Below are positions 12,700-43,584 of a stretch of 45,229 nucleotides of DNA, one piece after another. The DNA comes from Nitrospirota bacterium (GTDB lineage: Bacteria; Nitrospirota; Nitrospiria; Nitrospirales; UBA8639), in the NCBI GenBank assembly GCA_029864405.1, contig JAOTTP010000017.1, positions 1-45,229 of the forward strand, in the 5' to 3' direction. The position numbers were made by a program, and so were the translations under genes. The notes under the pieces are model-generated. The model did no database searches, was not told where the DNA came from, and saw only the letters and a list, made by a program, of their open reading frames with translations. The first letter of the stretch is position 1. Each line of letters starts with the position of its first letter.

Positions 12700-14391
12700 A
12701 TGCTTTCATGGGTTCATGGCCTTCATTTCAATAATATACGGGGAGACCTCTATGGCGGATTAGTGTCGGCAGTCGTGGCCTTACCGCTGGCCTTGGCCTT
12801 TGGAGTGACATCCGGGCTTGGGGCCATCGCGGGTCTGTATGGAGCAATTTTCGTGGGGTTTTTTGCAGCCCTCTTGGGCGGTACTCCTGCACAGGCCTCG
12901 GGACCGACCGGTCCGATGACCGTCGTCATGGCCGGGATTATATTGAAATTTCAAGACGAACCGGCTTTGGCCTTTACCGCCGTCATCTTGGGGGGAGGAT
13001 TTCAACTTTTATTCGGACTGCTGGGCTTTGGACGCTATATCACCTTGGTGCCATATCCAGTGATCTCAGGATTCATGAGCGGCATTGGAGGAATTATCCT
13101 CATTCTTCAAGTTGCGCCCTTTCTAGGATTGGAAGCGAAGTCCAAAGTCATGGCCAACCTCCTGGCGATGCCTGAGCACCTCGCATCTTTTTCTCCCTCC
13201 GCCGTGTTGATTGGTTCTCTTACGTTGGCCATTGTGTATCTCACTCCCGCCTCTATCGGCAAACGTCTTCCTCCGGTGTTGTTGGCTCTCATCGTCGGAA
13301 CGATTGCGGCTAATGTCTTTTTTCCCGCTCTTCCCATTATCGGAGAAGTCCCTACTGGATTCCCCACACCTATTTGGCCAACGATGCACACCAATGCGCT
13401 CTTGCTCATGGTGGAATCCGCTCTGGTGCTGGCTTTGCTAGGAACGATTGACAGTCTACTCACCTCTCTCGTGTGCGACAATATGACACGGACTCAACAT
13501 GATTCCAACCGCGAATTGATGGGGCAAGGCATCGGAAATATGATAGCCGGGTTCTTCGGAGGCATTCCTGGGGCAGGAGCTACCATGCGATCCGTGGCAA
13601 ACATTCGGACCGGAGGCCGAACCCCTCTTTCGGGCATGTTCATGGCGGTCGTCCTCCTAGGCACCTTACTTGGCCTGGGACCCCTGGCGGAAAAAATTCC
13701 CCTCGCGGTTTTGGCCGGGCTCCTTATCAAGGTTGGCTTCGACATTATCGATTGGCGCTTTTTAAAACATATGGTGCAAACCCCACGGACGGAAGTCCTG
13801 GTCATGGTCGTCGTGTTATTAGTGACCGTCCTGGTCGATTTGATTACTGCTGTGGGGATTGGGGTTGTTCTCGCCAGTGTCATGTTTGTGAAGCGGATGG
13901 CAGATCTGGAACTTGACAGCTTGACCATCATCACAGGATCAGCAACAGAAGCACCATTATTACTTGAAGAACAACGCATCTTAGAGCGTAATAAAGACCG
14001 GCTCGTGATGATCCATGTGAATGGGCCGATGAGTTTCGGCTCGGCTAAGGACATGGTCCGCCGGCTTGAATCTGTGAAGGGTTTCAATACCTTTTCCAGC
14101 GTGGTTCTTGATCTCACATCGGTCCCCACCATCGATGGAACCGCTGCGTTAGCGATCGAAGACATGCTGGCGATGGTGAAAAACTATCACCAGCATGTCT
14201 TTTTCGTGGGGATGCGTCCGGGAGTGGCTCGTGTCCTCAAAGGACTCGGAGTGCTCGATCAGGTACGACCTGAACATCGATACGCCATTCGGTTAGATGC
14301 GTTGCGCCACGCAGCTCATGTAGGCGGCTCCACCCATCCTTTCGATGTCCCTCCCAGAGAAGTCGTACCTGAACACCCAAAACCCCCATGA
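12700..14391 (+). CDS. SulP-family anion transporter with STAS domain (candidate bicarbonate transporter), copy 1
   Basis: 563 residues. The SulP transport domain (about 10-400) begins with GDLYGGLVSAVVALPLALAF and has the anion-site signature QASGPTGPMTVVMAG; a cytoplasmic STAS domain (about 425-540) contains FSSVVLDLTSVPTIDGTAAL. SulP proteins carry sulfate, bicarbonate or other anions; BicA in cyanobacteria is a Na+/bicarbonate symporter of this fold. The next gene encodes a Na+/H+ antiporter (nhaB1, 200 nt on), and the same pair recurs at 40025-43503, so Na+-coupled bicarbonate uptake is my favoured role, though sulfate cannot be excluded. The ribosome site is weak. A TTGACA-like element occurs at about 12597, but no good -10 partner is seen. 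Confidence 0.9.
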   Translation: MLSWVHGLHFNNIRGDLYGGLVSAVVALPLALAFGVTSGLGAIAGLYGAIFVGFFAALLGGTPAQASGPTGPMTVVMAGIILKFQDEPALAFTAVILGGGFQLLFGLLGFGRYITLVPYPVISGFMSGIGGIILILQVAPFLGLEAKSKVMANLLAMPEHLASFSPSAVLIGSLTLAIVYLTPASIGKRLPPVLLALIVGTIAANVFFPALPIIGEVPTGFPTPIWPTMHTNALLLMVESALVLALLGTIDSLLTSLVCDNMTRTQHDSNRELMGQGIGNMIAGFFGGIPGAGATMRSVANIRTGGRTPLSGMFMAVVLLGTLLGLGPLAEKIPLAVLAGLLIKVGFDIIDWRFLKHMVQTPRTEVLVMVVVLLVTVLVDLITAVGIGVVLASVMFVKRMADLELDSLTIITGSATEAPLLLEEQRILERNKDRLVMIHVNGPMSFGSAKDMVRRLESVKGFNTFSSVVLDLTSVPTIDGTAALAIEDMLAMVKNYHQHVFFVGMRPGVARVLKGLGVLDQVRPEHRYAIRLDALRHAAHVGGSTHPFDVPPREVVPEHPKPP

Positions 14392-14591
14392 GGAATGTTT
14401 CTTGACAATGGCCCCTTCCCTGTTCCTAAAAGAGCATTCATTGTGTATGCTGAGCAACTCCTCACTTCACTCATTCTGGCAAAGGCCCGGATACAAGAGA
14501 GATCACCAATCAACGTATTGACCATATTGATATTGGTTAAATCAGGCAGACTCCATCTGGTACTCCCAGTCCGAAAGGTCACCTAACGGCT

Positions 14592-16184
14592 ATGAAGACG
14601 ACTGTTCCTCAGGCGCTCATACAGAATTTTCTGAACCACACTCCAACCTGGTACAAGCTGACCATTCTGGGATTCTTAATTCTCAATCCCATCTTATTGA
14701 TGACCATTGGTTCCTTTTATACCGGGTGGGTTCTCATCCTGGAATTTATTTTCACGTTGGCCATGGCACTCAAAAGTTATCCACTGCAACCGGGTGGCTT
14801 GCTCGCCCTCGAAGCCGTCTTACTGGGGATGACGACTCCGGCCACGGTCTACCATGAAGCGCTCAATAACTTTCAAGTGATCCTATTGTTGATTTTTATG
14901 GTGGCCGGGATCTATTTCATGAAAGATTTGCTGTTGTTTCTGTTTACAAAAATTCTCTTGGGCGTCCGTTCAAAAATTTTGTTGGCACTCTTGTTTTCCC
15001 TCATGGGTGCCTTCCTCTCGGCATTCCTCGATGCATTGACGGTCACTGCGGTCATCATTGCCGTCGCATTGGGTTTCTATAACATTTACCATCGGGTGGC
15101 GTCGGGCAAGCCTTCTCATTCCTCCCATGATTCCACGAGCGACCAGGACATCGCCTCGCTTCACCGCGAAGATTTAGACAATTTCCGAGGATTCCTTCGA
15201 AATTTATTAATGCACGGAGCGGTTGGAACGGCATTAGGGGGGGTCTGTACTCTCGTGGGAGAACCCCAAAATTTATTGATTGCGGACAAAGCGGGCTGGG
15301 AATTTATGGAGTTCTTTTTCCGCATGGCGCCTGTCACACTTCCGGTCTTTGCCATGGGATTAACCACCTGTCTGATCGTCGAGAAAATGCGATGGTTTGA
15401 TTATGGGTTTCAACTCTCGGATCCCGTTCGCCACATCTTGGTGGAGTTCGAAACCGAACAACAGAAACGACGAGATTCCGGGGACACGGCGAGGCTGATC
15501 ATTCAAGCCATTGCGGGGATTTGGCTGATTTTTGCTTTGGCCTTTCACCTGGCCGAGGTCGGAATCATCGGACTGACGGTGATTGTGTTTATTACCGCCT
15601 TTAACGGGATCATCGAAGAGCATCAACTTGGAGAGGCTTTCAAGGAAGCACTTCCCTTTACAGCCCTCCTTGTCGTCTTTTTTGCCATCGTGGCCGTCAT
15701 CCAGGACCAGAACCTGTTTTCGGGCATCATTGGATATGGATTAAGTTTAGAAGGATCGCATCAAATCGGCATGTTTTATCTGGCCAATGGCATTCTCTCG
15801 GCCATCAGCGACAATGTCTTTGTTGCGACAGTCTATATTCAGGAAGTACTTCGTGCCTTCCAGGCAGGCACCATTACCCGTGACCAATTTGACCTGTTGG
15901 CCGTTGCCATCAACACCGGCACCAATATCCCCAGTGTGGCGACGCCAAACGGACAAGCCGCATTTTTATTTTTATTGACTTCCTCTCTGGCTCCGGTTAT
16001 CCGCTTATCCTATGGGAAAATGGTGTGGATGGCGCTTCCCTATGCGCTGACCATGGCGAGTGTGGGGCTATTGGCTGTATATTTTTTCTTAGATCCGGCG
16101 ACCGCGTATCTCTACGACACCGGACTCATTCACCACCATAGCCTGAGTACCTCCGGGAGTCCCACCGGACCATCAGCGCATTAA
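14592..16184 (+). CDS. nhaB: Na+/H+ antiporter NhaB, copy 1
   Basis: 530 residues, close to the 513 of E. coli NhaB, and recognisable along its length: [92 protein letters not shown] and [19 protein letters not shown]. The inner-membrane protein expels Na+ in exchange for H+. It lies 200 nt after sulP1 on the same strand, in a gap with no clear promoter or terminator. It is very close in sequence to the second copy at 40025-41650, with long identical runs in the C-terminal half. Beside a putative Na+/bicarbonate symporter it would restore the Na+ gradient (inference). Confidence 0.93.
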
Positions 16185-17860: not shown

Positions 17861-19369
17861 TTATCGAATCGCCACCTCGTGGAGCATTCCCACCTGGTAT
17901 TGGGCCATATGTTGAACCAGGTGCGTGACGCTGGAATCCATCATTTCCATGAGCGGAGACGGATACAAGCCGATCCCCAAGACTAGAACCGCAAGAGGGA
18001 TCACCGTGGCCAACTCTCGTATACTCAAATCCGGGAGTTGTGAGATGGTGGGATTTTTGGGTTGACCCAACACCACCCGTTGGAGCATCCAGAGCATATA
18101 CGCCGCAGCGAGGACAATGCCCCCCATGGACAACAGCACCATCACATAGCTTTTAAAGGATGTTCCGACCAAGACCAAAAATTCTCCGATAAAATTACAT
18201 GTACCAGGCAATCCAAAGGATGCCACTGAAAACAGACAAAAAAGCGCCACAAATCGAGGCATCGATTTTTGCAATCCTCCATAATCGTGAATCGACCGGG
18301 TATGAGTTCGATCATACAATTGCCCGACAGCCAAAAAGAGGGCTCCTGTGGTAATCCCATGGTTCACCATCTGCAAGATGGCTCCTTGAATACCATGGTT
18401 ATTGAACACGAAAATTCCCAATGTCACAAATCCCATATGCGAAATGGACGAATACGCCACCAGCTTTTTCAGATCCGACTGGGCCAAGGCCATATACCCC
18501 CCATACACAATACCCGCCACGGACAACCATAAGATATACGGGGCAAAGGTCACTGAGGCCTCAGGAAACATGGGCAAACAAAATCGTAAAAATCCATACC
18601 CACCCATTTTTAAGAGCACCCCTGCCAAAAGAACGCTTCCGGCAGTGGGGGCTTCGGAATGGGCATCCGGCAGCCATGTGTGAAACGGTAACATGGGTAA
18701 CTTAATAGCAAAGGCTAAAAAGAAAGCCAGAAATATCCAAAACTGGGCGTCGGGGGAATAGGTTTTCTCGGCCAAGGCCAAAATATCGAACGTCCGCCCC
18801 CCTTCGACATACAACCCGAGTATCGCTAAGAGTAAAATCAGGCTTCCTGACAAGCTGTACAAGACGAATTTGATGCCGGCCGCAATTCGTTGGGGGCCAC
18901 CCCACAAAATGATCATGAAATACATGGGAATCATCGTGACTTCCCACAACATGAAAAACAAAAACAGGTCAAGGGCGGTGAACACCACAATCATGGCCCC
19001 TTCGACCAAAAGAATCATCGCCATAAAGGAGCGTACACGTGTCGTAATGGATTTCCAGGAGCAGAGTACGCAAAAGGGACAGAGCAGCGTCGTGAGCAAA
19101 ACCAGGAGAAGACTAATCCCATCCACCCCGACTGCATATTGAATATTGAAGGTCGGCATCCATGCCATCCGCTCCACAAATTGCATGCCTTGCGTGGAAA
19201 AATCAAATTCTTTCAACAGCACCAATGAGAGAGCACCAGCCCCCAGCGTACACCCGAGAGCCACACGCCGAATCCATTCCTGATCCTGAATACAGGCAAT
19301 GATCGCAATACCCAAAAACGGAATGACAATCATGACACTCAAGAGATGTTCAGTGAAAATCGTGTTCAT
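17861..19369 (-). CDS. NuoM-like proton/cation-translocating subunit
   Basis: 502 residues, a 14-helix antiporter-like subunit of the NuoM/MrpD family. Key charges are visible: Glu of FFMLWEVTMIPMYFMI in TM5, Lys of AFAIKLPMLPFHTWLPDAHS in TM7, a Lys-containing TM8 (VLLKMGGYGFLRF) and the LKKLVAYSSISHMG loop. It closes the cluster, 134 nt after the nuoL-like gene. Because the locus encodes no NuoB/C/D/E/F/G/H/I, it is not an ordinary NADH dehydrogenase operon. The protein more likely forms part of a membrane arm with the NuoL-like and Mnh proteins and DabA (inference). NuoM-type identity is clearer than MrpD-type. Confidence 0.9.
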   Translation of the reverse strand: MNTIFTEHLLSVMIVIPFLGIAIIACIQDQEWIRRVALGCTLGAGALSLVLLKEFDFSTQGMQFVERMAWMPTFNIQYAVGVDGISLLLVLLTTLLCPFCVLCSWKSITTRVRSFMAMILLVEGAMIVVFTALDLFLFFMLWEVTMIPMYFMIILWGGPQRIAAGIKFVLYSLSGSLILLLAILGLYVEGGRTFDILALAEKTYSPDAQFWIFLAFFLAFAIKLPMLPFHTWLPDAHSEAPTAGSVLLAGVLLKMGGYGFLRFCLPMFPEASVTFAPYILWLSVAGIVYGGYMALAQSDLKKLVAYSSISHMGFVTLGIFVFNNHGIQGAILQMVNHGITTGALFLAVGQLYDRTHTRSIHDYGGLQKSMPRFVALFCLFSVASFGLPGTCNFIGEFLVLVGTSFKSYVMVLLSMGGIVLAAAYMLWMLQRVVLGQPKNPTISQLPDLSIRELATVIPLAVLVLGIGLYPSPLMEMMDSSVTHLVQHMAQYQVGMLHEVAIR

Positions 19370-19503: not shown

Positions 19504-21681
19504 TTACAGGACAAACAAAAACACCAGCAAAATCCCAAAAATAAGCCAGAAAATCATCACCAGCAAGTGGTGCTGTAACGTGCGAGGTTCCAGTTCACGC
19601 ATCATGTCCCCGGTGGCCTTGGCCTGACCCCCTGCACGATTCACATTTTTATCGAGAATTTTAATGTCGATTGCTTTCCACAGCCAGTTGGCAATCCCAA
19701 GGCTTTGTTTCCCGATCCCCACCACTACCCGGTCCACACCACGAAGGTCCACCACCCGCCAGAGCCACCCGGCCATTCCTACGCTATTCCGGCCTAAACC
19801 CACCACCAGCCCATCAATCCCCCGAAGATCCACCACTCGCCACAACCACTTCGCGGTTACCACCGACACATTTGCAACTCCCATGATCAGCGCGTCAAAG
19901 ACCTGCCGGTCGACAACCCGCCACAGCCATCGGGAAAACCGGAGAGTTGGCAGCACAACATACGCCTCATACATTTCGTCGAAATACAATTTATTCAGGA
20001 AATGGACATACCAGCGCTTGCCCATTTCCGATTGTTGAAACCAGGATCCAGAAAATTTTGTCAATGAAAAGTACCCCACTGCTACGCCACCAACAGCCAC
20101 AGCAAGGGCAAGAATGAGTTGCAAGCCCGTCCCACTCGAGGATTCTTTTAAAATAAGAGCCGTCCGATGTCCCACGACCGGCGACAGAAATTGCGCAAAC
20201 CAACTCCACAAGATCAGCAACAGGCTTCCAACGATTCCGATGCCAGCCAAGATTCCCAGAAGATGAATGGGGGAAAAGAAACGAGGCTGCATGGCTTGCC
20301 CCTCCATTCCATCTCCAAAGGCTGTCGATAGAGGTTGATAAAACAACACCAGGACGCCACGTATGACATACATGGCTGAGAAAAATACCGTCAGAGATCC
20401 CAGAATCCAAAATGTCCATTGAGCTGGGGCTCCCGGTTGAGCCATCCACAATTGTTCATAGGGCCCTGAGAAAATAAGAAACGGGGGAAGACAGGCTAAC
20501 AGCACCGCCCCTGACAGGAATGGCCACAAGGAATGGGTTGAGGGCGCATGTGGGGAAAACGAAGTTGGTTCATGTCCATGCGAGCCGACCGAACGAAGGG
20601 CATTTCCCGTCGATAAAAATAAAAACCCCTTCAAACATCCATGGGCCAGCATATGAAAAATAGACACCACAAAGGCCCCGACTCCGCAGGTCATGATCAT
20701 GAAACCGATTTGACCAATCGTGGAAAAGGCGAGCATGCGTTTAATATCCACCTGGGTCAAGGAGACCAGGGTCGCAAAGAGCGCTGTCATACCCCCTATC
20801 ACCGCAATGACGGTCATGGCTTCAGGCGAAAGCATCACTAACGGACTCATGCGAACCAACAAGAAGGGTCCGGCATTCACCATGGTTGCGGCGTGAATCA
20901 AGGCCGAAACTGGCGTGGGCGCTTCCATGGCAAAGGGTAGCCAGACGTGGAAGGGCACTTGTGCGGATTTTCCCATGGCCCCCATGAATAAAAAGAGGGT
21001 AATGAGAGTTAAGACGTGAATGTGAACGTCCAACCCGAGCCAGCCGAACAGGTTGATCGTGTTTCCCTGTATGGACTGGGCTTCCGCTAAGATCGTCTGG
21101 ATATCCAGCGTTCCAAAGGTGGAATAGGTCAGAATGACTCCAAAGCCTAACCCCACATCGGCAACCGAATTCATTAAAAAGGCTTTGGTGGCGGCCTGAG
21201 CAGATGACTGCCGTTCGCCCCAATGAGCAATCAATAAATAGGAGCAGATCCCCATGATTTCCCAAAACACATACATCATGAGCAGATTATTGCTCATGAC
21301 CAGCATGATCATGGAAAAGGTGAACAGAGCAATGACCGCAAAAAAACGGTTATACCGAGGATCGCCGATCATATAGCGGGACGCGTACACATGCACCACG
21401 CTGCTCACACCGGTGACCAGGAGCAGGAGCAACACGGTGAGCTGGTCGACGTAGAGCCCCAAATCGACAACGAGATCTCCGGAATGGATTAGTCGATACA
21501 AGGGAACGGAGAATGCTCCGTCAGATGCCACTTGAGCAAACGCGATGGTGGAAAAGGCGAAGGATAGGGCCATCGCCGGGATACCGATCTTATGGCCTTG
21601 CTCCCCCAGCCAGGGTTTCCCCAGCACGAGAATCAGAACAGCCATCAGAGGAAGGAGGGGAATGAGGATGAAAAATGTCAT
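19504..21681 (-). CDS. NuoL/MrpA/DabB-like antiporter subunit with repeated lateral-helix region
   Basis: 725 residues. The antiporter core (about 1-510) has Glu of MYVFWEIMGICSYLLI, Lys of GKSAQVPFHVWLPFAMEAP, and HAATMVNAGPFLL. Partners of DabA are NuoL-like (DabB), and MrpA starts with the same fold, but this protein lacks the MrpA C-terminal part, which is encoded separately at 23992. From residue 585 the segment that normally forms one lateral helix consists of three full 27-residue units beginning WLWRVVD (585, 612, 639) and a divergent fourth beginning WLWKAID (666), then a terminal membrane helix (about 702-725). Each unit resembles the single motif near the end of ordinary NuoL (W..vD..viDg.V.G). 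It lies 29 nt after mnhD. Confidence 0.92.
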   Translation of the reverse strand: MTFFILIPLLPLMAVLILVLGKPWLGEQGHKIGIPAMALSFAFSTIAFAQVASDGAFSVPLYRLIHSGDLVVDLGLYVDQLTVLLLLLVTGVSSVVHVYASRYMIGDPRYNRFFAVIALFTFSMIMLVMSNNLLMMYVFWEIMGICSYLLIAHWGERQSSAQAATKAFLMNSVADVGLGFGVILTYSTFGTLDIQTILAEAQSIQGNTINLFGWLGLDVHIHVLTLITLFLFMGAMGKSAQVPFHVWLPFAMEAPTPVSALIHAATMVNAGPFLLVRMSPLVMLSPEAMTVIAVIGGMTALFATLVSLTQVDIKRMLAFSTIGQIGFMIMTCGVGAFVVSIFHMLAHGCLKGFLFLSTGNALRSVGSHGHEPTSFSPHAPSTHSLWPFLSGAVLLACLPPFLIFSGPYEQLWMAQPGAPAQWTFWILGSLTVFFSAMYVIRGVLVLFYQPLSTAFGDGMEGQAMQPRFFSPIHLLGILAGIGIVGSLLLILWSWFAQFLSPVVGHRTALILKESSSGTGLQLILALAVAVGGVAVGYFSLTKFSGSWFQQSEMGKRWYVHFLNKLYFDEMYEAYVVLPTLRFSRWLWRVVDRQVFDALIMGVANVSVVTAKWLWRVVDLRGIDGLVVGLGRNSVGMAGWLWRVVDLRGVDRVVVGIGKQSLGIANWLWKAIDIKILDKNVNRAGGQAKATGDMMRELEPRTLQHHLLVMIFWLIFGILLVFLFVL
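19687..19929 (-). repeat. Three tandem 27-codon units in the nuoL-like gene
   Basis: Units start at residues 585, 612 and 639 (DNA 19929, 19848 and 19767, reading down the - strand), each exactly 81 nt. Shared residues are WLWRVVD at positions 1-7, Asp at 12, Gly at 17 and small or hydroxyl residues at 22-26. A fourth unit (666-692) keeps WLW and D but diverges later. The DNA of the copies has drifted apart, so this is an old protein-level duplication rather than a recent slippage product. Confidence 0.9.
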
Positions 21682-21710: not shown

Positions 21711-23180
21711 CTAAAGCCCGGGTGGAACCGCGTTTTTGAGGAGAAAGCTGACAATGTGATCGCTCATCAGCCCCAAAACAATGACCGCCACCGATGTCGC
21801 GCCGAGACTAATCCGTACCGCCAACGGAACCTCACGTATGAGGGGAGGCTGCTGGACTGACCGATCACGAAACACCCGTTCAAACAACTTCATGAAATAG
21901 GCCAGAGTCAACAGGGTCGCAATGAGCACTGCCCCAATAGCCAGGTAATTCTGCGCTTCCACCGCGCCAAGAATGATATACCATTTTCCAAAAAACCCTC
22001 CGGTGGGAGGAATCCCGATCATCGACAGGGCTATGACCACCAGGGCTACCGACATCCATCCCGGTCCCCCATACAATCGACTTAGGTCCTCAATAGTTCG
22101 AACCCCATAGAGATGAATAATCGCCCCTGCCCAGAAAAACAATCCTGCCTGCATCACCGCATCATTCAAGAGATAAAACACTCCTCCGACAAATCCGGTT
22201 TGATTCCCGAGACTAATCCCCACCAGAACCAACCCGATATGCGAAAGTCCTCCATAGGCAAACATGCGTTTGATCTCTACCTGGGACAAGGCGAGGAATG
22301 CGCCAATCAAGGCGGCAAGCGCGCCCAACACCCCCACTAAAAACAGGATGGGGATCTGGTAAACCACTGCATGGACTCCGAGCACCCAAAACATAATGCG
22401 GATCCATCCATACAAAGCCACCTTGGTCACTAACGAAGCCAGCATGGGTGACACTCTGTCCGGAGCATACGTGTAGGCATCCGGCAACCACCCATGGAGG
22501 GGCACCAACGCCATCTTGATGCCCAGCCCAATAAACATGAACAGGACTCCGACGGCGATGGCTCTGGAGGTCACCAAAGGCGGCAGACGCTGAGCCAAGT
22601 CCGCCATATTGAGCGTACCCGTTTCGGCATACAGGTACCCCACTCCCAGGAGATACAACGAAGCTCCGAACGTACCTAGAATCAAATATCGAAAACCCGC
22701 GACGAGAGCCTTTCCACCGGCCAACCCTACCAAGGCATACGCACACAAGGCCGACACTTCCAAAAAGACAAAGAGATTGAAGAGATCCCCGGCAAACACC
22801 ATCCCGATCAGACTGGCTATCAATAACAACACCAGCGTATAAAACGGGACAATCCGGCTGCCAAGATAGGGAAACAAAACCGAACTGAGGAAGATGATGC
22901 ACACCAAAGCGACGAGGCTAAGAGCCACAGTCATGACGCTGGCTAATCCGTCAGCCACCCACTCAATCCCGACTGGAGCGGCCCATCCCCCAAACTCATA
23001 ATGGATCGTCCCGGTTTGAAGAACTCCTATCAAATTGGCGACCGAGACCGGGACCATTCCCGCCACAACACCAATCGCTAAGAAGCGGCACCATTCCCGG
23101 TGTTTGAGCCCGATTAACGGCAGACAAATGGCCAAACCTAAAGGCAACAGAAAAAGGAGCACGGGAAGGTGTTGCGTCAT
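21711..23180 (-). CDS. mnhD: MnhD/MrpD-like antiporter subunit
   Basis: 489 residues, a 14-helix antiporter-like subunit. It has Glu in FNLFVFLEVSALCAYALV (TM5), Lys in GIKMALVPLHGWLPDAYTYAP (TM7), Lys in SLVTKVALYGWIRI (TM8) and KRMFAYGGLSHIGLV. The GIEWVADGLASVM stretch near the N-terminus is typical of MrpD. In Mrp complexes MrpD pairs with MrpA to exchange Na+ for H+. The start overlaps the mnhC stop by 4 nt (23177-23180). It is the third 14-helix subunit of the locus besides the NuoL- and NuoM-like proteins, so the assembled membrane arm may hold three such channels. Confidence 0.9.
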   Translation of the reverse strand: MTQHLPVLLFLLPLGLAICLPLIGLKHREWCRFLAIGVVAGMVPVSVANLIGVLQTGTIHYEFGGWAAPVGIEWVADGLASVMTVALSLVALVCIIFLSSVLFPYLGSRIVPFYTLVLLLIASLIGMVFAGDLFNLFVFLEVSALCAYALVGLAGGKALVAGFRYLILGTFGASLYLLGVGYLYAETGTLNMADLAQRLPPLVTSRAIAVGVLFMFIGLGIKMALVPLHGWLPDAYTYAPDRVSPMLASLVTKVALYGWIRIMFWVLGVHAVVYQIPILFLVGVLGALAALIGAFLALSQVEIKRMFAYGGLSHIGLVLVGISLGNQTGFVGGVFYLLNDAVMQAGLFFWAGAIIHLYGVRTIEDLSRLYGGPGWMSVALVVIALSMIGIPPTGGFFGKWYIILGAVEAQNYLAIGAVLIATLLTLAYFMKLFERVFRDRSVQQPPLIREVPLAVRISLGATSVAVIVLGLMSDHIVSFLLKNAVPPGL

Positions 23181-23557
23181 TCCATCCTTTTGAGAATTTC
23201 TTCTTCGTCCAGACTGCCATATTTTTTATAAATGGCATCAGCTAGGGCCAAAGAGACTCCCAGGGTGGCAACGCCCACCACAATAGCGGTCAATGTCAGC
23301 ACGTGAGGGAGGGGATTCGTATAGACTTCCGGCTGAATAACCTCGGTGGTGGAAAGCAGGATGGGCACCGTGGCGCCTCGCTTGGCACTGGTCGTCACGA
23401 GGAAGAAGATGACACTGGTTTGCATGAGATACATCCCGATGAGTTTTTTCACCAGATTGTACCGGGTCACCATAATATAGATGCCCCACAGAAACAGCAG
23501 CACGAAGGCGATGTAATTGGGGCGCTGCAGCCACCCCCCAATCAACTCAAACATCAT
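23177..23557 (-). CDS. mnhC: MnhC/MrpC-like subunit (NuoK homologue)
   Basis: 126 residues, three membrane helices in the NuoK/MrpC pattern: YIAFVLLFLWGIYIM, the LIGMYLMQTSVIFFLV helix, and LPHVLTLTAIVVGVATLGVSLALA. The LTAIVVG segment is the MrpC/NuoK signature. The start (ATG 23557, or the adjacent ATG 23554) overlaps the end of mnhB by 8-11 nt, and its stop overlaps the mnhD start by 4 nt, which indicates tight co-translation. The C-terminal tail is soluble and acidic (DEEEILKRME). Together with MnhD and the NuoL-like protein it would form the conserved Mrp/complex I membrane core. Confidence 0.9.
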   Translation of the reverse strand: MMFELIGGWLQRPNYIAFVLLFLWGIYIMVTRYNLVKKLIGMYLMQTSVIFFLVTTSAKRGATVPILLSTTEVIQPEVYTNPLPHVLTLTAIVVGVATLGVSLALADAIYKKYGSLDEEEILKRME

Positions 23558-23995
23558 ACTCCTGCTCGGTGTCGTGATAGGCCAAGCTAAGAACGATAGA
23601 GATCCCGGTCACTGCAACATCCACGGCCACTCCGATTTGTGCCAGGAGAATCCCCATATACCGACGTGTGGGAGCATCCAAACCCGGAATCTCCAAATTG
23701 GCATAGTTCAGAAATTCCCCACCTCCAATGAGGCATAAGCCTCCGACTCCCACAAAAATGATCAATCCCACTCCATCACCATGCAACGCCTTTTCCACCA
23801 GGCGCCCCTGAGGGGACTTCAGCCCAAACACCAAAAAGGTCAAGATCATACTGGTCGTCCAAATGACGCCGGCTACAAATCCCCCCCCGGACCATATTGG
23901 CCGAAGAATAAAACGTACAAAGCAAACAACTGGGCCAAAGGAATGAGCAAGCGACTCATGGTCTGAACAATAATACTGTCGTGCATCTGTTTCAT
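23547..23995 (-). pseudogene. mnhB: mnhB (MrpB-like) interrupted by a frameshift in a G8 tract
   Basis: ATG 23995 overlaps the upstream stop by ATGA, so translation should start here. The first frame encodes 40 residues (23873-23995) ending near GQYGPGGD and a TAG. The rest of MrpB (FVAGVIWTTSMILTFLVFG onward, to the stop at 23547) lies in another frame. The break falls in eight consecutive G (C on the + strand, 23881-23888), exactly at the codons of the family's conserved PGGGF motif; nine G would restore one protein of about 149 residues, a normal MrpB length. Both halves are otherwise well preserved. So this is a recent mutation, a homopolymer sequencing error, or a slippage site that makes some full-length protein. 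Confidence 0.85.
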
Positions 23996-24525
23996 GAGCC
24001 GGGCTCCTTTAATAACAACGCACAGGCAATGCCGGCCGTAAAAATCACCACGGTTTCAATCAAGGTATCAAATCCCCGATAGTCCATCAGAACCGACGTG
24101 ACCACATTCGGCGTGAGAGTGTCCGCATAACTTTGCTGTAAGTACACAGGAGAGATATGCACATTTGGCGGTGAGGTTGGGTCGCCGAACCGTGGAAGAT
24201 CATTGGCCGCTAATAACAGAAGAAGGCCCAGCATGGGCAGTCCGAGCACTCCAGCCAGGGGAGGAGGAGGACGACGAAGACGGCTATCTTTGGGGGCGGT
24301 ATCAAACAACGTAATGAGAAACAACACGGTAGCCAACCCGGCCCCAATCACGGCTTCCACAAATGCCACATCCACCGCGCCCAGCCAGGCCCAAACCAAA
24401 GCCAGGAAGAAACTGTACGAACCGAGAATGAACACAGAACTCATCAATTCCTTCACCAAAAATGTCGCGCTGGCCGCCGTGAGGACCAGGAGTAACAGCA
24501 AGACAATGTTCACCGAATACATCAT
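23992..24525 (-). CDS. MrpA C-terminal-like subunit (DUF4040 / MbhD-MbhE type)
   Basis: 177 residues with about five membrane helices. The first half (LVLTAASATFLVKELMSSVF, then AVDVAFVEAVIGAGLATVLF) is the DUF4040/MbhD-like NuoJ-related region. The second half (TPNVVTSVLMDYRGFDTLIE, then VVIFTAGIACALLL) matches the last part of MrpA/MbhE. In standard Mrp operons these lie at the C-terminus of MrpA; here they are a free-standing subunit, complementing the NuoL-like protein. ATG 24525 is chosen because it overlaps the mnhG stop as ATGA; the longer frame from 24687 overlaps mnhG and begins with non-membrane, unlikely sequence. The stop overlaps the mnhB start by 3 nt. Confidence 0.87.
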   Translation of the reverse strand: MMYSVNIVLLLLLVLTAASATFLVKELMSSVFILGSYSFFLALVWAWLGAVDVAFVEAVIGAGLATVLFLITLFDTAPKDSRLRRPPPPLAGVLGLPMLGLLLLLAANDLPRFGDPTSPPNVHISPVYLQQSYADTLTPNVVTSVLMDYRGFDTLIETVVIFTAGIACALLLKEPGS

Positions 24526-24821
24526 TGGTCTTCCTCTGTCTGAGGTTTCACGCCCGCCCGATACGCCGCTCGGACAGTTGCATGAGCAATGACCGGATTC
24601 AGAAGCAAGAGCAAGACCAGGACAACGAGGATCTTTAACATATTGATCCCGAATCCCTGATAAATAGAAAGGCCCGCGAGGACGCAAATCGCCCCTAAGG
24701 AATCGGTCAGAGAGACCGCATGAGATCGCGTAAACACGTCGGGGAGTCTAAGCGTGCCAATCGCGGCAACCACAAGAAAGAATACGCCAAACAGAATTAA
24801 CCCGACAGCAAGGATGACCAT
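24522..24821 (-). CDS. mnhG: MnhG/MrpG-like subunit
   Basis: 99 residues, three membrane helices. The family signature is clear: IGTLRLPDVFTRSHAVSLTD, then GAICVLAGLSIY and LLLLLNPVIAHATVRAAY. MrpG is a small structural subunit of the Mrp cation/proton antiporter in the cytoplasmic membrane. Its ATG follows the mnhF stop directly (24822), and its TGA overlaps the next start by 4 nt, so it belongs to one translationally coupled operon. Its length is ordinary for the family, and I see nothing unusual in it. Confidence 0.92.
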   Translation of the reverse strand: MVILAVGLILFGVFFLVVAAIGTLRLPDVFTRSHAVSLTDSLGAICVLAGLSIYQGFGINMLKILVVLVLLLLLNPVIAHATVRAAYRAGVKPQTEEDQ

Positions 24822-25088
24822 TTAGGGTGCACCTCGTTGCTCAAGAAACTTGGCAATGGCAAACGCCCCAACCAAGTTCAGAAGCGCATACCCCGTGGAG
24901 ATATCCACGAACATCTCCACACGGTCATACACCGTGCCCATCACCACAACCAGAATGATGGCTTTGGTCGAAATTCCATTCAATCCTAATACCCGATCAA
25001 ACACCGTCGGACCCTGGATCACTCGGTACAAATACACGAGAATGAGGACCGATAAAATGATTAAGAGAAACAGAAAAAAATTGATCAT
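24822..25088 (-). CDS. mnhF: MnhF/MrpF-like subunit
   Basis: 88 residues with three helices: FLFLLIILSVLILVYLYRVI, the family motif GPTVFDRVLGLNGISTKAII, and EMFVDISTGYALLNLVGAFA, ending in AKFLEQRG as MrpF proteins do. It is a small membrane subunit of the Mrp antiporter; in some bacteria MrpF alone has been linked to bile-salt or Na+ efflux, but that is not evident here. The start overlaps the mnhE stop by 4 nt (25085-25088), and mnhG begins right after its stop. Confidence 0.92.
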   Translation of the reverse strand: MINFFLFLLIILSVLILVYLYRVIQGPTVFDRVLGLNGISTKAIILVVVMGTVYDRVEMFVDISTGYALLNLVGAFAIAKFLEQRGAP

Positions 25089-25579
25089 CGCTGATTCGTG
25101 TCTTCCTGAAAGACCCAGGCAAGCTGGCGCTCCATCCGACCGGTGGTGAGATCCTTCCCTGCTGTCTCATCTATGGCATGCACCAAGAATGCATTGCCGT
25201 TGACTTCCACGGTAATGGTGCCAGGCGTCAGGGTCACAGAATTCCCAAGCAGAACGATCGCGCCCCGATGTCTTAAATGAGACCGATAGGTAATGAGTAT
25301 GGGCTTAATGGGTAACGAGGGATTCAGAATGAGTTTCGTCAAATGCAGACTACTCTCAACAACCCGTAGAAAGAGCCAGGGGCTGTACAGCACCACACGG
25401 GCCCATGGGAAATGGTGAAAGGGAGAATGAGGGAATCCCGTGTTTAACCACGCGACTCCACAAGAGACCATGAATCCAAGAACGAGGTGAAAATTGTCGT
25501 ACTTCCCTGATAACACGAGCCAGACACAAAATAGGGCCAGGGTGTTAGCGATAAACTGTTTCGGAAAAGAAGACTTCAT
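25085..25579 (-). CDS. mnhE: MnhE/MrpE-like subunit
   Basis: 164 residues. Two N-terminal helices (FIANTLALFCVWLVLSG, then LVLGFMVSCGVAWLN) precede a cytoplasmic domain with SSLHLTKLILNPSLPIKP and LLGNSVTLTPGTITVEVNGN, the MrpE core. It is the first gene of the Mrp-like run and has GAGGA in its leader 10-15 nt before the ATG at 25579. A terminator-like hairpin (25637-25694) lies 57 nt upstream of the start, so transcripts from dabA would have to pass it. The gap of 485 nt to dabA contrasts with the tight overlaps downstream, which suggests a separate control point for mnhE onward. Confidence 0.9.
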   Translation of the reverse strand: MKSSFPKQFIANTLALFCVWLVLSGKYDNFHLVLGFMVSCGVAWLNTGFPHSPFHHFPWARVVLYSPWLFLRVVESSLHLTKLILNPSLPIKPILITYRSHLRHRGAIVLLGNSVTLTPGTITVEVNGNAFLVHAIDETAGKDLTTGRMERQLAWVFQEDTNQR

Positions 25580-26064: not shown

Positions 26065-29000
26065 TCATATTGTAACCGTGACTGGTTCCCAAGTTGAATC
26101 AGCGAGATACCGTGAAAAGCCTTTGGAGTCTGGATCACACGCTATGACATTCATCCATTGGTTATGGAAGACATGCTGAAGCAAAACGTGTTTCTGAATG
26201 ATGGACCGTATTCGATCCCGCGGCGCCTCAATGATGGCGAGTAAGCGCATGGGTTCATGATAGTGCCGCGCCCCATCGTTTACCGATTGGAGGGGAAGGC
26301 CTTTTTGCAGATCACTTTGGCTCCCTAACATCACACCAACTCCGGCAACCATATTGTGAATGACCTTGCTCCCACTCCCATAGGCCCAAGGATCCACCGC
26401 CGAAAAGTAATACGTTAGGTTAATCAATTCGCCCACGATGAGAGGTGCGGTCATGATTTTTTCAAGAAAACTCCCATCAGGATCTGAGCCAGGGTCGTAG
26501 GAATGCAAAAAGACTCTCCCTTCCAAATCCAGACCCTTGGTAAGAGCCCGCCTTCCAATCAAAAAGGCGGCGTTCCCTGACAATCCCCATTCAGGACGGG
26601 AATTAGCCCAATCCATGCTCCGTTGTCTGACATGCTTGAACGCTTCATTTGGAGACACCGCTGTCGGAGCACCGGGAATTCGCTGGCATCGTTCCAATGC
26701 CTGATGTGTGCCAGCCTGCTCCAAGTCCCTCACCAACAGTGCTAAATCCTCTCCATGGGTAGCAGGAACATCGACAAGGTCATACAACGTCACTCGATCT
26801 GTGGTCGTGTTGTGTTTGGCGGGAAGAAACCAGGTGTCCTCTGGAATGACCAGACCATGATCGCTCAGAATTTGCCGAACCTCTGGATTATTGGCCATGG
26901 CGGCAAAGACACGAGCATTCGGGTCACCATGACTGCCTCCACATGCGCCACAGTCCAGGGCCGCATAATAGGGATTATTATCGGATTGGCTTCCATGACC
27001 GCAGACCATCACAAACCGGCCAAAGTTTTTCGTGAGGCCGATCACACGCAATCCGCCCTCCACAAAGGCCGCTTGCTCCAATGGGGTGAAACCTTGCGTC
27101 AGTTCTCCCAAACGCTGCGTTCCCTGCTCGTCTTTACCTGAAGGCTCAACAGGAATATACGTGGCCACGGTGCTCCCGAGCCACTGCTGCAGCCACTGTT
27201 TGACGGTGTCGAAGGAGGTTCGAAACAGCGTTTTCCCTACCAACCCGACGCTAAAAAACATTCCTAGCACATCAATCAGCATAAAGGAGGCAAATGGATT
27301 GTGCTTCAGATCATGAAAGAGGTGATGACTGAGTTGATGCCACCGGGTCCCTGAAAGATAGTCCTTCACCCTATCATCCTGACCTATTCGGGGAACTTCG
27401 ATCACTTCCGATTTCGGTGCCAACAAAATGGGACACAAGGCCAAATGGTCGTGGCTATCAAATGCTACATGACTCATGGGTACCCCAAAGAACCCGGCAT
27501 ACCCAAAGGTTTCATACGGCCCCTGAGCTTCAAGATGACGACGAAACGACTCTGACCGAGCATCGATACAAAAAATCCCTTGCGCCCGCGGCCGCTCATT
27601 GGTAACGGGTGCCACCGCTTGATGTCCGCTGATGTTCCCCAGCAAATACTCCCGATAGACGTCCTCATACGCTTCAAGCCATACCGGTCCATGTGCAGAT
27701 TGGGGAAAGAGATCCAGCCATTCCAGTAGGGTTGAAATGTCGGTGTAAGACAATTCGTGTACCTCAATTGGAGTCAATTCCAAAAACTGAGCCAGGTGAA
27801 AAAGTCGCCAAGCCTGATGACACACCCCGTAAATATTAGGGTCGGTGGGGTGAGAAGAAGGGAGGCTCAACTCCTGTTCATGCTCACGATGTTCGTTCCA
27901 ATAGGCTAGTAGTGCAGGTAACGTCCCCTTGATGCCCCATTCCCGTTGGCAGAGTCCTTCCACCATTCCCGATTCATAAAAGAGCCGGACGGCCAGATAT
28001 TGCAGAGGATCGATGGGGTATCGTTGTTGGGCAGGATACCCGGAATGGTCTCCACGCCAGCGAATAAACCCTGCCCATCCGGGCAATTGGGCCAGATGCC
28101 GCGAGAGATACTCTGGCCATCGCTCCTTCGGGATATTGAGATCCTGGAGATGTTTGCACAACATCTCTTCTGGTTCATCGGAAAGTTCGCGGAATTTTTG
28201 TCGAAGATGAGGGATCCCGAGAAATTTGCCTGAGAGATCCCCTTGCGCCAGTTCTCGCCATGCAGCATAAAATCCATTCTCTCTTGAAGGCATGCTCCAT
28301 CCGGCAACTCCCTCGTCAACAAATGCCGCAATCCATTTGATCATGTGGGTATTGATGGTCTCAACCAGCACGCTCCCCGTTACCCGATCCAGCCAATCAC
28401 CCAACGTCCTGTCTGCGGGTAAATCAACCGGGACAGAATGGGCTTCTTCTCTTGTTGAAGCAGAGCTCCGACTAAGACCAGGTGCATGAAAAGAAGCCGT
28501 ACCCGACACAGGGTCAGACAAGTGGCAGGCTGCCAACGAACTTTTCCAGAGGTTGTGCAGATAGGCGGATTCCGGATCATGTCGGCACTTCTCGCACTCC
28601 CGAATCGTTTGGTCAATAATGGATGTTCGAGAATCCTCGGGAAGATCGGACCGGAACCGTTTTGTCGCACCCTCTAATTCTATGGTCCAAGTCAGGAGGA
28701 CAGGATTTAACTCTTCAATGCCGTAAATGGCATGAATCCGCCAGATATCTCTCGCGTGAATGGTGCGCCCACCAATTTGAATAGTCGCCTGAGAAGGGAG
28801 AGAAGGACCGACACGCTGAAGAGCCCGTTCAACAGCGGTCTGGGTAATTCGACCTTGATGAAAAAATCGGCGATATTCTTCAACAGGCAGAAACCCCTTG
28901 GCACCCAGCAACTGATGCGCTTCCGCAATCGCCTGGGCAAACGGTAAATGCTCGAGGTCCCGAATGGGATTGTAGTAAGCAAACGTTTTCATCGGCCAAT

Positions 29001-29091
29001 ACGGCCCAATGGGTCGACACGCCTCGGCAACGATTTCTCGAAGCCATCGCCAATTCGTCACGGATGGACGATCTTGATCAGCGTGGTTCAT
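26065..29091 (-). CDS. dabA: DabA/MpsB (DUF2309) inorganic-carbon transport subunit
   Basis: 1008 residues from ATG 29091, chosen for GGAG 8 nt upstream; ATG 29121 is an in-frame alternative. The DUF2309 family supplies the beta-carbonic-anhydrase-like half of the DAB pump, thought to drive one-way CO2 hydration to bicarbonate at the membrane using an ion gradient through a NuoL-like partner. The four expected zinc-site residues are present with family-like spacing: Cys508 and Asp510 (GIFCIDARSESFRRHL), His699 (VMVCGHGSQSDNNPY) and Cys714 (ALDCGACGGSHGDPNAR). There is no signal peptide. It is the first gene of the - strand cluster, divergent from mpsC, with a leader holding a terminator-like hairpin. 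At about 1000 residues it is longer than many DabA proteins, mostly N-terminal to the active site. Confidence 0.95.
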   Translation of the reverse strand: MNHADQDRPSVTNWRWLREIVAEACRPIGPYWPMKTFAYYNPIRDLEHLPFAQAIAEAHQLLGAKGFLPVEEYRRFFHQGRITQTAVERALQRVGPSLPSQATIQIGGRTIHARDIWRIHAIYGIEELNPVLLTWTIELEGATKRFRSDLPEDSRTSIIDQTIRECEKCRHDPESAYLHNLWKSSLAACHLSDPVSGTASFHAPGLSRSSASTREEAHSVPVDLPADRTLGDWLDRVTGSVLVETINTHMIKWIAAFVDEGVAGWSMPSRENGFYAAWRELAQGDLSGKFLGIPHLRQKFRELSDEPEEMLCKHLQDLNIPKERWPEYLSRHLAQLPGWAGFIRWRGDHSGYPAQQRYPIDPLQYLAVRLFYESGMVEGLCQREWGIKGTLPALLAYWNEHREHEQELSLPSSHPTDPNIYGVCHQAWRLFHLAQFLELTPIEVHELSYTDISTLLEWLDLFPQSAHGPVWLEAYEDVYREYLLGNISGHQAVAPVTNERPRAQGIFCIDARSESFRRHLEAQGPYETFGYAGFFGVPMSHVAFDSHDHLALCPILLAPKSEVIEVPRIGQDDRVKDYLSGTRWHQLSHHLFHDLKHNPFASFMLIDVLGMFFSVGLVGKTLFRTSFDTVKQWLQQWLGSTVATYIPVEPSGKDEQGTQRLGELTQGFTPLEQAAFVEGGLRVIGLTKNFGRFVMVCGHGSQSDNNPYYAALDCGACGGSHGDPNARVFAAMANNPEVRQILSDHGLVIPEDTWFLPAKHNTTTDRVTLYDLVDVPATHGEDLALLVRDLEQAGTHQALERCQRIPGAPTAVSPNEAFKHVRQRSMDWANSRPEWGLSGNAAFLIGRRALTKGLDLEGRVFLHSYDPGSDPDGSFLEKIMTAPLIVGELINLTYYFSAVDPWAYGSGSKVIHNMVAGVGVMLGSQSDLQKGLPLQSVNDGARHYHEPMRLLAIIEAPRDRIRSIIQKHVLLQHVFHNQWMNVIACDPDSKGFSRYLADSTWEPVTVTI

Positions 29092-29194
29092 TGCCCCATC
29101 TCCACTTTTCCAAGAGCCCATCCATCTAAAATCGTCAGAAAATGTTTGAAGAAGCTATACGTGATACGAAGCGCGCGATTAACTATTCCACAAT

Positions 29195-40024: not shown

Positions 40025-41650
40025 TTAATGAGGCAAAGTAAAACCAGGCATGGACACTGGAATCCCCTGAGCTGGATGGTGTTCTGCCACGGCCGGCACA
40101 TGATGTGTCAAGATCCCTTGTGCATAGTAAGTTTGTGTCACCGGTTGCAACAACACATACACAGACAAGAGCCCCGCGAGTGTCATGGTGACCGTATACG
40201 GAAGAGCCATCCACACCATCCGGCCATACGAAAGACGAATCACGGGGGCAAGAGCCGACGTCAACAGAAAGAGAAAAGCCGCCTGCCCATTGGGAGTCGC
40301 GACACTGGGAATATTGGTCCCCGTGTTAATGGCGACTGCCAGGAGATCAAATTGATCACGGGTAATCACTCCCTGATGAAAGGCCCGCAGGACCTGTTCA
40401 ATATAGATCGTGGCGACAAAGACATTGTCGCTGATGGATGACAAGATGCCGTTGGCAATAAAAAACATGCCGATTTGATGATCCCCATCCATGGCCAAAG
40501 CATAATGGATAATGCCTCCGAAGAGTTGTTGCTCCTGGATCACTGCTACTACTGAAAAAAACACCACCAAGAGCGCCGTAAACGGAAGAGCCTCTTTGAA
40601 GGCCTCTCCAAGTTGATGCTCTTCGATAATGCCATTGAAGGCGGTAATAAACACGATCACCGTGAGTCCGATAATTCCGACCTCCGCCAAATGAAAGGCC
40701 AGGGCAAGAATTAACCAGATCATAGCCAGACCCTGAACGATCAAACGGGCCTTAAACCGATGATCCATCTTACGGGAGGTCTCTTGGTCAAACCCCCAAA
40801 GAATGTCCCTGACGGCTTGGGGAAGACCGAATCCATAACCAAACCATCGGAATCGTTCGACCAGGCCACAGGTCAGGAACCCCACAATCAACACCGGGAT
40901 GGTCACAGGAGACATGCGGATAAAGAATTCAATAAAATTCCAACCCGCCTTCTCTCCGATCAACAGATTTTGCGGTTCTCCGACTAAGGTGCAGACTCCT
41001 CCCAGCGCCGTGCCGACTGCGGCATGCATGAGGAGGTTCCTTAAAAACCCCCGAAACTCCTCTAAATTAGTGCGATGGATGGTGCCAACGTCATGATCAA
41101 GAGAATGGTCATGATCATCTTGAACCCCTTTTCCGGAAGCCACTCGGTGATACACTTTGAAAAATCCCACCCCTACCGCAATGATGACCGCAGTGACGGT
41201 GAGAGCATCCAGAAAGGCCGACAAAAATGCCCCCATTCCTGAAAATAACAGGGCCAGCTTCGTTTTCGATCTGACCTCGAGCAAAATTTTCGAAAAAACA
41301 AACAACAACAAATCTTTCATGAAGTAGATCCCGGCCACCATGAAAATCAGCAGGAGGATCACCTGGAAATTATTGAGCGCCTCATGATAGACGGTTTCGG
41401 GTTTCGCCAACCCAATGAGTACGGCTTCAAGCGCCAGCAGCCCACCAGGTTGCAGGGGATAACTTTTTAACGCCATCGCCAAGGTAAAAATAAATTCAAT
41501 AATGAGGGCCCAACCCGTGAGAAATGGACCAATGGTCATGAACAAAATGGGATTGAGGATCAAAAATCCCAGAATAGTCAGCTTGTACCACCTTGGGGCA
41601 TGATCAAGAAAATTTTGGCCAAATGCCTGAAGAAACGGCATCGTCATCAT
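40025..41650 (-). CDS. nhaB: Na+/H+ antiporter NhaB, copy 2
   Basis: 541 residues, closely matching the first copy at 14592: [79 protein letters not shown] and [19 protein letters not shown]. Over the last 200 residues most differences are conservative. The cytoplasmic loop after YHRVASGK (about residue 180) and the C-terminal tail differ between copies and may carry regulation. The longest frame begins with TTG at 41662; ATG 41650, 41647 or 41641 are more likely starts. It lies about 53 nt after sulP2, so both are probably one transcript from the sigma-54-like promoter at 43585. Confidence 0.93.
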
Positions 41651-41703
41651 TGAAAATCCCAACTAAGAATGGTTCGTGATCGAGCAGTCAGCATAAATGT
41701 TCT

Positions 41704-43503: not shown

Positions 43504-43584
43504 TCTTATTTCCTCCGCCTTGTTCGTCATCGTCTATTACAGAAACCAAAGAACAAACGTTTCAATTTTCCAACGAACTTCATC

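Follow-up and report, generated by a model that had tools for sequence, protein, structure and literature searches.

For complex I it has long been asked whether the lateral helix of NuoL-type antiporter subunits acts as a passive strap, as a coupling rod or as a ruler, and the question is posed again by a locus of a Nitrospirota bacterium in which this helix appears to be built from tandem units. The locus lies in contig JAOTTP010000017.1, of which the whole stretch of 45,229 nucleotides was analysed (hereafter the window). An earlier note, made from the sequence, had proposed that the units set how many NuoL-, NuoM- and MnhD-like subunits the strap can hold, in the manner of a molecular ruler. 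We asked what the repeat is, to which complex it belongs, and whether loci encoding more antiporter subunits have more units.

A 27-residue tandem repeat in a NuoL-like subunit

The repeat-bearing protein scores 471.6 bits against the NuoL profile TIGR01974 (cut-off 407.5), contains the domains PF00361 and PF00662, and has a core fold whose best matches are NuoL/ND5 chains (probability 1.00). The two end motifs of its strap align with those of complex I NuoL. Profile, domains and core fold support the proposal that the repeats belong to the region of the lateral helix in a NuoL-like subunit, and on these sequence comparisons we regard the lateral-helix reading as well supported. Three units of exactly 27 residues, each beginning WLWRVVD, and a divergent fourth stand before the last hydrophobic helix, which comes after unit 4, just as had been described; the interval first given for the repeat, 19687–19929, covers units 1–3, and unit 4 lies just outside it (Table 1).

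Table 1. Features of the window that bear on the repeat and its locus
Feature	Positions	Strand	Size or residues	Motif or basis of assignment
NuoM-like antiporter subunit	17861..19369	-	502 aa	TIGR01972, 623.7 bits (cut-off 263.8)
NuoL-like antiporter subunit, DabB/MrpA/NuoL type, carries the repeat	19504..21681	-	725 aa	TIGR01974, PF00361, PF00662
C-terminal end motif, leads into last hydrophobic helix	19564..19590	-	residues 698–706	EPRTLQHHL
Unit 4, divergent	19606..19686	-	residues 666–692, 27 aa	begins WLWKAID
Unit 3	19687..19767	-	residues 639–665, 27 aa	begins WLWRVVD
Unit 2	19768..19848	-	residues 612–638, 27 aa	begins WLWRVVD
Unit 1	19849..19929	-	residues 585–611, 27 aa	begins WLWRVVD
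N-terminal end motif	19975..19995	-	residues 563–569	NKLYFDE
MrpD-like antiporter subunit	21711..23180	-	489 aa	family profiles
MrpC-like subunit	23177..23557	-		family profiles
MrpB-like ORF, shorter than in relatives	23547..23849	-	100 aa	family profiles
DUF4040 (MbhD/MbhE) protein, equivalent of MrpA C-terminal part	23992..24687	-		family profiles
MrpG-like subunit	24522..24821	-		family profiles
MrpF-like subunit	24822..25088	-		family profiles
MrpE-like subunit	25085..25579	-		family profiles
DabA, probable inorganic-carbon transporter subunit	26065..29121	-	1018 aa	PF10070, 860.5 bits

Units 1 and 2 are identical at 13 of 27 residues, units 1 and 3 at 11 and units 2 and 3 at 18, while unit 4 shares 6, 7 and 8 residues of 27 with units 1, 2 and 3, respectively. 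The 108-residue stretch has a self-identity of 0.48 at an offset of 27 residues and of 0.04–0.10 at offsets 24–26 and 28–29. None of 20,000 shuffles reached 0.48, the best shuffle value over offsets 10–60 being at most 0.31, which rules out a chance or low-complexity repeat. At the DNA level the window units are only 0.42–0.65 identical, so the series is old in the window lineage, and silent differences among them (0.65–0.80) are likewise those of an old series. Tandem Repeats Finder at score 30 reported no array at the position of the repeat. The repeat in the window protein is a protein-level one and not a recent DNA duplication.

The repeat lies in an Mrp-like locus with DabA

Ten genes follow one another downstream on the minus strand in the order dabA, mrpE, mrpF, mrpG, DUF4040, mrpB, mrpC, mrpD, NuoL-like and NuoM-like, and three of them are of the antiporter type. 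The MrpE, F, G, B, C and D subunits of a Group 3 Mrp antiporter are all encoded. Full-length MrpA is absent: the NuoL-like protein reaches 210.3 bits against TIGR00940 (cut-off 920.45), and the C-terminal part of MrpA is a separate DUF4040 protein. DabA (PF10070) and a PF00361 partner are both present, the partner seven Mrp genes away from dabA, and DabA contains the motifs CIDAR, CGHGS and CGACGG, which we take to have a role in zinc binding. No electron-transfer-arm nuo genes were found among the ORFs typed, and the locus has one NuoM-like gene rather than the two of 2M complex I. The best explanation of the window protein, judged from these assignments, is that it is a putative NuoL-type subunit of an Mrp-like complex encoded with DabA, for which we use the working label Mrp-DAB.

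The MrpB-like ORF is 100 residues long, against about 149 in most relatives, and a 40-residue ORF lies in another frame just upstream of it (region 23547–23995, minus strand), so that the gene looks interrupted, whether by assembly error or in reality. Gene pairs for a SulP/STAS permease and an NhaB antiporter flank the locus at 12700–16184 (plus strand) and 40025–43530 (minus strand).

Mrp-DAB resembles the Mrp antiporter in its MrpE, F, G, B, C and D subunits and in the lateral helix on its large subunit (PMC9568556, PMC7419157), but MrpA is split into NuoL-like and DUF4040 proteins and a NuoM is added. With DAB2 (DabA2–DabB2) it shares a DabA and a NuoL-type partner; unlike Mrp-DAB, DAB2 has a short DabB2 lateral helix and no Mrp subunits (PMC13144422). 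The SKD of complex I NuoL at broken TM12 is missing from all 28 Mrp-DAB rows of alignment A1, which was read by eye, a regular expression for the region having been too narrow (no match in 14 of 49 rows); DabB2 is also without NuoL's Lys399/Asp400 at this place (PMC13144422). The same kind of locus, with group 3 Mrp genes and then NuoM- and NuoL-like genes, is described in Ca. Nitrospira alkalitolerans (PMC7784846) and lineage IV Nitrospira (PMC12342949), and NhaB and a BicA-type SulP are found there as well. In the available parts of these two papers we found no mention of the repeat for the Nitrospira Mrp loci; the term DUF2309 is absent from both main texts as available, and DabA from that of PMC12342949.

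Complex I provides a yardstick for strap length

Strap length was taken as the number of residues between N-[KR]-x-Y-x-D-E and the C-terminal end motif (EPRTLQHHL in the window, QSGQxQHY in complex I). It is 54–55 residues in 33 canonical Nitrospirota complex I NuoLs (32 by script, and 54 by eye in L138), and M and N adjoin NuoL in 27 of the 33 stretches fetched. In loci with L, M, M and N it is 79 residues in 11 of 11, which bears out the starting premise that complex I variants with an additional NuoM have a longer NuoL lateral helix. The relation is already published for 2M complex I (PMC9040806, PMC6606698, citing Chadwick et al. 2018), whose NuoL lateral helix is reported to be longer by about 26 residues in a similar place and is read as spanning the extra pump subunit. 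By eye, the two strap stretches of the 2M NuoL show no mutual resemblance. In one MrpA from the same phylum (L162) the end motifs are, again by eye, just about 23 residues apart.

Two complex I NuoLs (L152, L153) have 79 residues although the 19 kb fetched around them show a single NuoM. According to PMC9040806, NuoL inserts also occur in Nitrospirota complexes without an extra pump gene, so a parting of length and gene count is already known. The same source describes complex I variants of Ca. Manganitrophaceae with a 26-residue insert in the helix of MrpD2; these have one insert in a different complex, whereas Mrp-DAB has a tandem series of two to five. Ahead of the strap region, three canonical NuoLs (L157, L158, L159) have a segment of low complexity in which Ala, Pro, Gly, Glu and His abound, with repeats such as GAPMEG in L157; the strap region itself keeps the usual 55 residues.

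Strap length steps by 27 residues in Mrp-DAB relatives

Relatives were drawn from a whole-protein search of 395 Nitrospirota genomes (at most two candidates scored per genome; 351 genomes matched, most holding complex I NuoL only) and from a tail-alignment scan of genome_contigs, which gave 77 stretches and 43 loci and, since it used repeat and tail patterns, leans to repeat-bearing members. The Mrp-DAB family is represented in bins of Nitrospirota, Nitrospinota, Acidobacteriota and Planctomycetota and in the cultured Pseudohaliea rubra DSM 19751, whose protein (L117) has three units, all degenerate. In the 49 distinct proteins that have the two end motifs, the distance between them is 81 (2 proteins), 106 (1), 107 (2), 108 (19), 134 (2), 135 (21) or 162 (2) residues, where 81, 106–108, 134–135 and 162 correspond to two, three, four and five units, and 44 of the 49 distances are exact multiples of 27. 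This set leaves out six loci that lack the C-terminal end motif (the DabA-L-M loci L068–L072 and L042, discussed below), the fragments L073, L106 and L108, and nearly identical duplicates of genes that had been fetched more than once. Strap length in Mrp-DAB relatives is quantised, stepping by fixed 27-residue modules; steps of this kind are in part to be expected from tandem duplication alone.

The Mrp-DAB strap is 27 to 108 residues longer than the 54–55 residues with which complex I crosses two subunits, and such a length invites the idea that it extends past MrpD, over the small Mrp subunits or a neighbouring protomer, and would hold the complex or an oligomer together. The isolation of Mrp complexes as both monomers and dimers (PMC9568556, PMC7419157) is consistent with this proposal, which we nevertheless find decidedly doubtful. 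Unit number varies although all the small-subunit genes stay. The lateral helix of complex I NuoL ends beside the last antiporter-like subunit, and the C-terminal end motif of the Mrp-DAB strap aligns with that of complex I NuoL. The interface of the solved Mrp dimer, moreover, is formed mainly by MrpE (PMC7419157).

Unit number does not follow the encoded antiporter subunits

Apart from the window, 31 of the 48 relatives have all ten genes on one strand, and the units number four in 17 of these, three in 13 and two in one. Each of the 45 loci showing D, L and M has one of each (M is split over two ORFs in L079), with two units in 2 loci, three in 22, four in 19 and five in 2. Unit number changes at least ten times on a quick core tree (55 rows, 49 of them labelled; 15 of 52 inner branches weak). 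Within a Nitrospina clade (99% SH-aLRT), L119, L118, L112, L121 and L095 carry 2, 2, 3, 3 and 4 units, and L119, L121 and L095, with two, three and four units, have all ten genes.

That unit number might be explained by a further NuoM encoded away from the locus was considered and, on the 26 genomes tested, rejected. One NuoM of the Mrp-DAB kind was found in 26 of 26 genomes tested (67–100% identity; in two pieces in G302), some of which are incomplete (the window's own is 66% complete) and eight of which are without a completeness figure; the next best match anywhere in these genomes is 58%. Their unit numbers are two (1 genome), three (10), four (14) and five (1).

Since unit number varies without following the encoded pump subunits, a ruler for encoded subunits fails its test. 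With two to four units across 31 loci of the same ten-gene make-up, we find no support here for unit number setting or reflecting how many NuoL-, NuoM- and MnhD-like subunits are encoded, and the comparison of the earlier note's ruler with the loci goes against it: the comparison of homologues that it had called for shows no relation between unit number and antiporter genes, the outcome that it had itself named as speaking against a ruler.

A ruler might act instead on stoichiometry: each unit would cross one antiporter-like subunit, and a single NuoM product would be reused (L-M-M-...-D), the strap fixing its copy number. Complex I offers a precedent, in that an extra NuoM goes with 25 more residues (54–55 to 79), and window units 2 and 3 are alike (18/27), as expected for a repeated partner, which the 2M stretches are not. 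NuoM is also the most conserved of the L core, M and D, surpassing the other two in 426 of 435 pairs from 30 complete Mrp-DAB loci (mean identities 0.739 for NuoM, 0.590 for the L core and 0.618 for D), compared with 166 of 351 pairs in which M surpasses L and N in 27 canonical complex I loci (means 0.635, 0.638 and 0.568 for M, L and N), the pairs not being independent. Such conservation might be expected of a subunit in contact with further copies of itself, but it could also have other origins; it is the sole hint in the sequences that we keep for a stoichiometric ruler. Duplication, however, also leaves alike units, and the stoichiometry would have to shift often, even among close Nitrospina relatives. 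With one NuoM of this kind in each of the 26 genomes tested, the stack would need to consist of a single protein, and we know of no example of such a stack built from one protein. We therefore regard the stoichiometric ruler as unlikely. Distinctly unlikely, in our view, is the fuller proposal that the modules between the NuoL-like and MrpD-like subunits set NuoM copy number and that lineages retune the ions moved through gain or loss of 81 bases.

Loci with DabA but without Mrp genes

Six loci (L042, L068–L072) contain DabA, L and M, and no Mrp genes were found in the stretches fetched (4–20 kb, some ended by contig ends). Units counted by eye number one (L042, L069, L070, L071), two (L068) and three (L072), some of them of 26 residues, and the last helix of these NuoL-like proteins differs from that of the Mrp-DAB kind. 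Loosely, unit number is higher where Mrp genes are present, yet it varies within each kind of locus. In the NuoL-like protein of L072 (9233–11443, plus strand) two neighbouring units are almost the same and each 26 residues long, so that units shorter by one residue exist as well.

Second DAB-type sets were seen in several places. A divergent one separates a forward DabA from the Mrp genes (L056, L064; genomes G133, G137). The window genome itself has, on contig C185 (L016), a 570-residue NuoL-like protein that stops where the strap region starts, a divergent M-like protein and, at the contig end, the first codons of a second DabA. In genome G081, the sole DabA lies about 260 kb from the Mrp locus, yet there are three units in the strap.

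These loci bear on the suggestion that the units form a docking surface for DabA and not a strap. Of the 48 relatives, 31 have DabA within the locus as it was fetched, and a good part of the others are ended by contig or stretch limits; one to three units are carried also by the DabA-L-M loci in which no Mrp genes were found. Three units are kept in G081 despite its distant DabA, however, and in the second DAB-like locus of the window genome the NuoL-like protein breaks off where the strap would begin; both argue against DabA docking as the main role. Solved DabB2, in addition, has just a short lateral helix (PMC13144422), and we consider the docking explanation highly improbable.

Predicted shape of the strap

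The highest 19-residue Kyte–Doolittle value is 1.35 in the units and 3.19 in the last helix, and every unit contains charged residues, which as a prediction, and short of proof, speaks against membrane-spanning units. Twenty-seven residues make 7.5 turns at 3.6 residues per turn, and in an ideal helix without breaks each unit would therefore point away from the one before it. The mean hydropathy over 210 unit instances (duplicates included) gives moments in opposite directions at 100 degrees per residue, at 108 degrees for positions 1–9 and at -85 degrees for positions 10–18. Two AlphaFold2 models, built from 30 and then 49 aligned rows, have pLDDT below 50 over residues 609–709 and 616–713. 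Breaks at pLDDT below 50 fall at 617–626, 644–659 and 671–679 in one model and at 617–622, 644–646 and 671–676 in the other; they are 27 residues apart, with one per unit in units 2–4 and none in unit 1, and give a hint from modelling that there may be one helix break per unit. In E. coli NuoL the helix is kinked at its contact with NuoM, insertions of 6–7 residues in the lateral helix are tolerated at most tested places, and an insertion between NuoL and NuoM strongly cut pumping (PMC3274701).

The units are under selection and arise by duplication

Across 55 pairs drawn from 11 close relatives, dN/dS has a median of 0.11 over the four units, compared with 0.064 over a stretch of 210 core codons. 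The units are under purifying selection, and a dN/dS of 0.11 rules out neutral junk. In the group of 11 close relatives, orthologous units have mean identities of 0.76–0.93 and units inside one protein of 0.25–0.46, so each unit keeps its own sequence there. The closest unit pairs in four proteins (L088, L095, L100, L112) are 0.84–0.96 identical in DNA, as left by recent 81-base duplications. Together, recent 81-base duplications and purifying selection indicate a series that is extended by tandem duplication and retained afterwards.

The likeliest reading: a modular strap that tolerates changes in length

The reading that fits best, and that we hold to be moderately likely, is a modular strap whose length is tolerated over two to five modules. 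The lateral helix would be a membrane-surface strap between two anchoring helices, grown by tandem duplication of a single 27-residue module of the kind found in ordinary complex I NuoL. Each module may be one step along the membrane surface and is probably a helix with a break near VD-x-RG, and the strap would tie the NuoL-like subunit (DabB-like and presumably facing DabA) to the NuoM-like, MrpD-like and small Mrp subunits. Its length, free of a one-to-one match to the encoded pump subunits, may be tolerated over two to five units, with any excess serving as added reach or left as slack. That excess length is tolerated is what we infer from the variation alone, and a subunit stoichiometry varying with unit number would give the same data. 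The small insertions borne by the E. coli NuoL helix at most tested places favour a tolerant strap (PMC3274701). The strap of complex I, for its part, behaves as if length-matched, which counts against a tolerant strap, as does the strong loss of pumping after an E. coli insertion between NuoL and NuoM (PMC3274701).

Mrp-DAB differs from 2M complex I in having one NuoM where the latter has a second NuoM gene, and in having one to four more modules than the complex I pattern, its modules being recognisable tandem copies of variable number. In the literature searched, as far as its text was available, we found no description of tandem modules in a NuoL-type lateral helix.

A length match seen in complex I cannot be taken for granted in a sister complex. 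Mrp-DAB is a natural length series, with two, three, four or five modules while the other genes are unchanged, and such a series could separate the strap, ruler and rod readings of the lateral helix. Were the ruler true, lineages would tune the ions moved by a DabA-coupled pump through steps of 81 bases.
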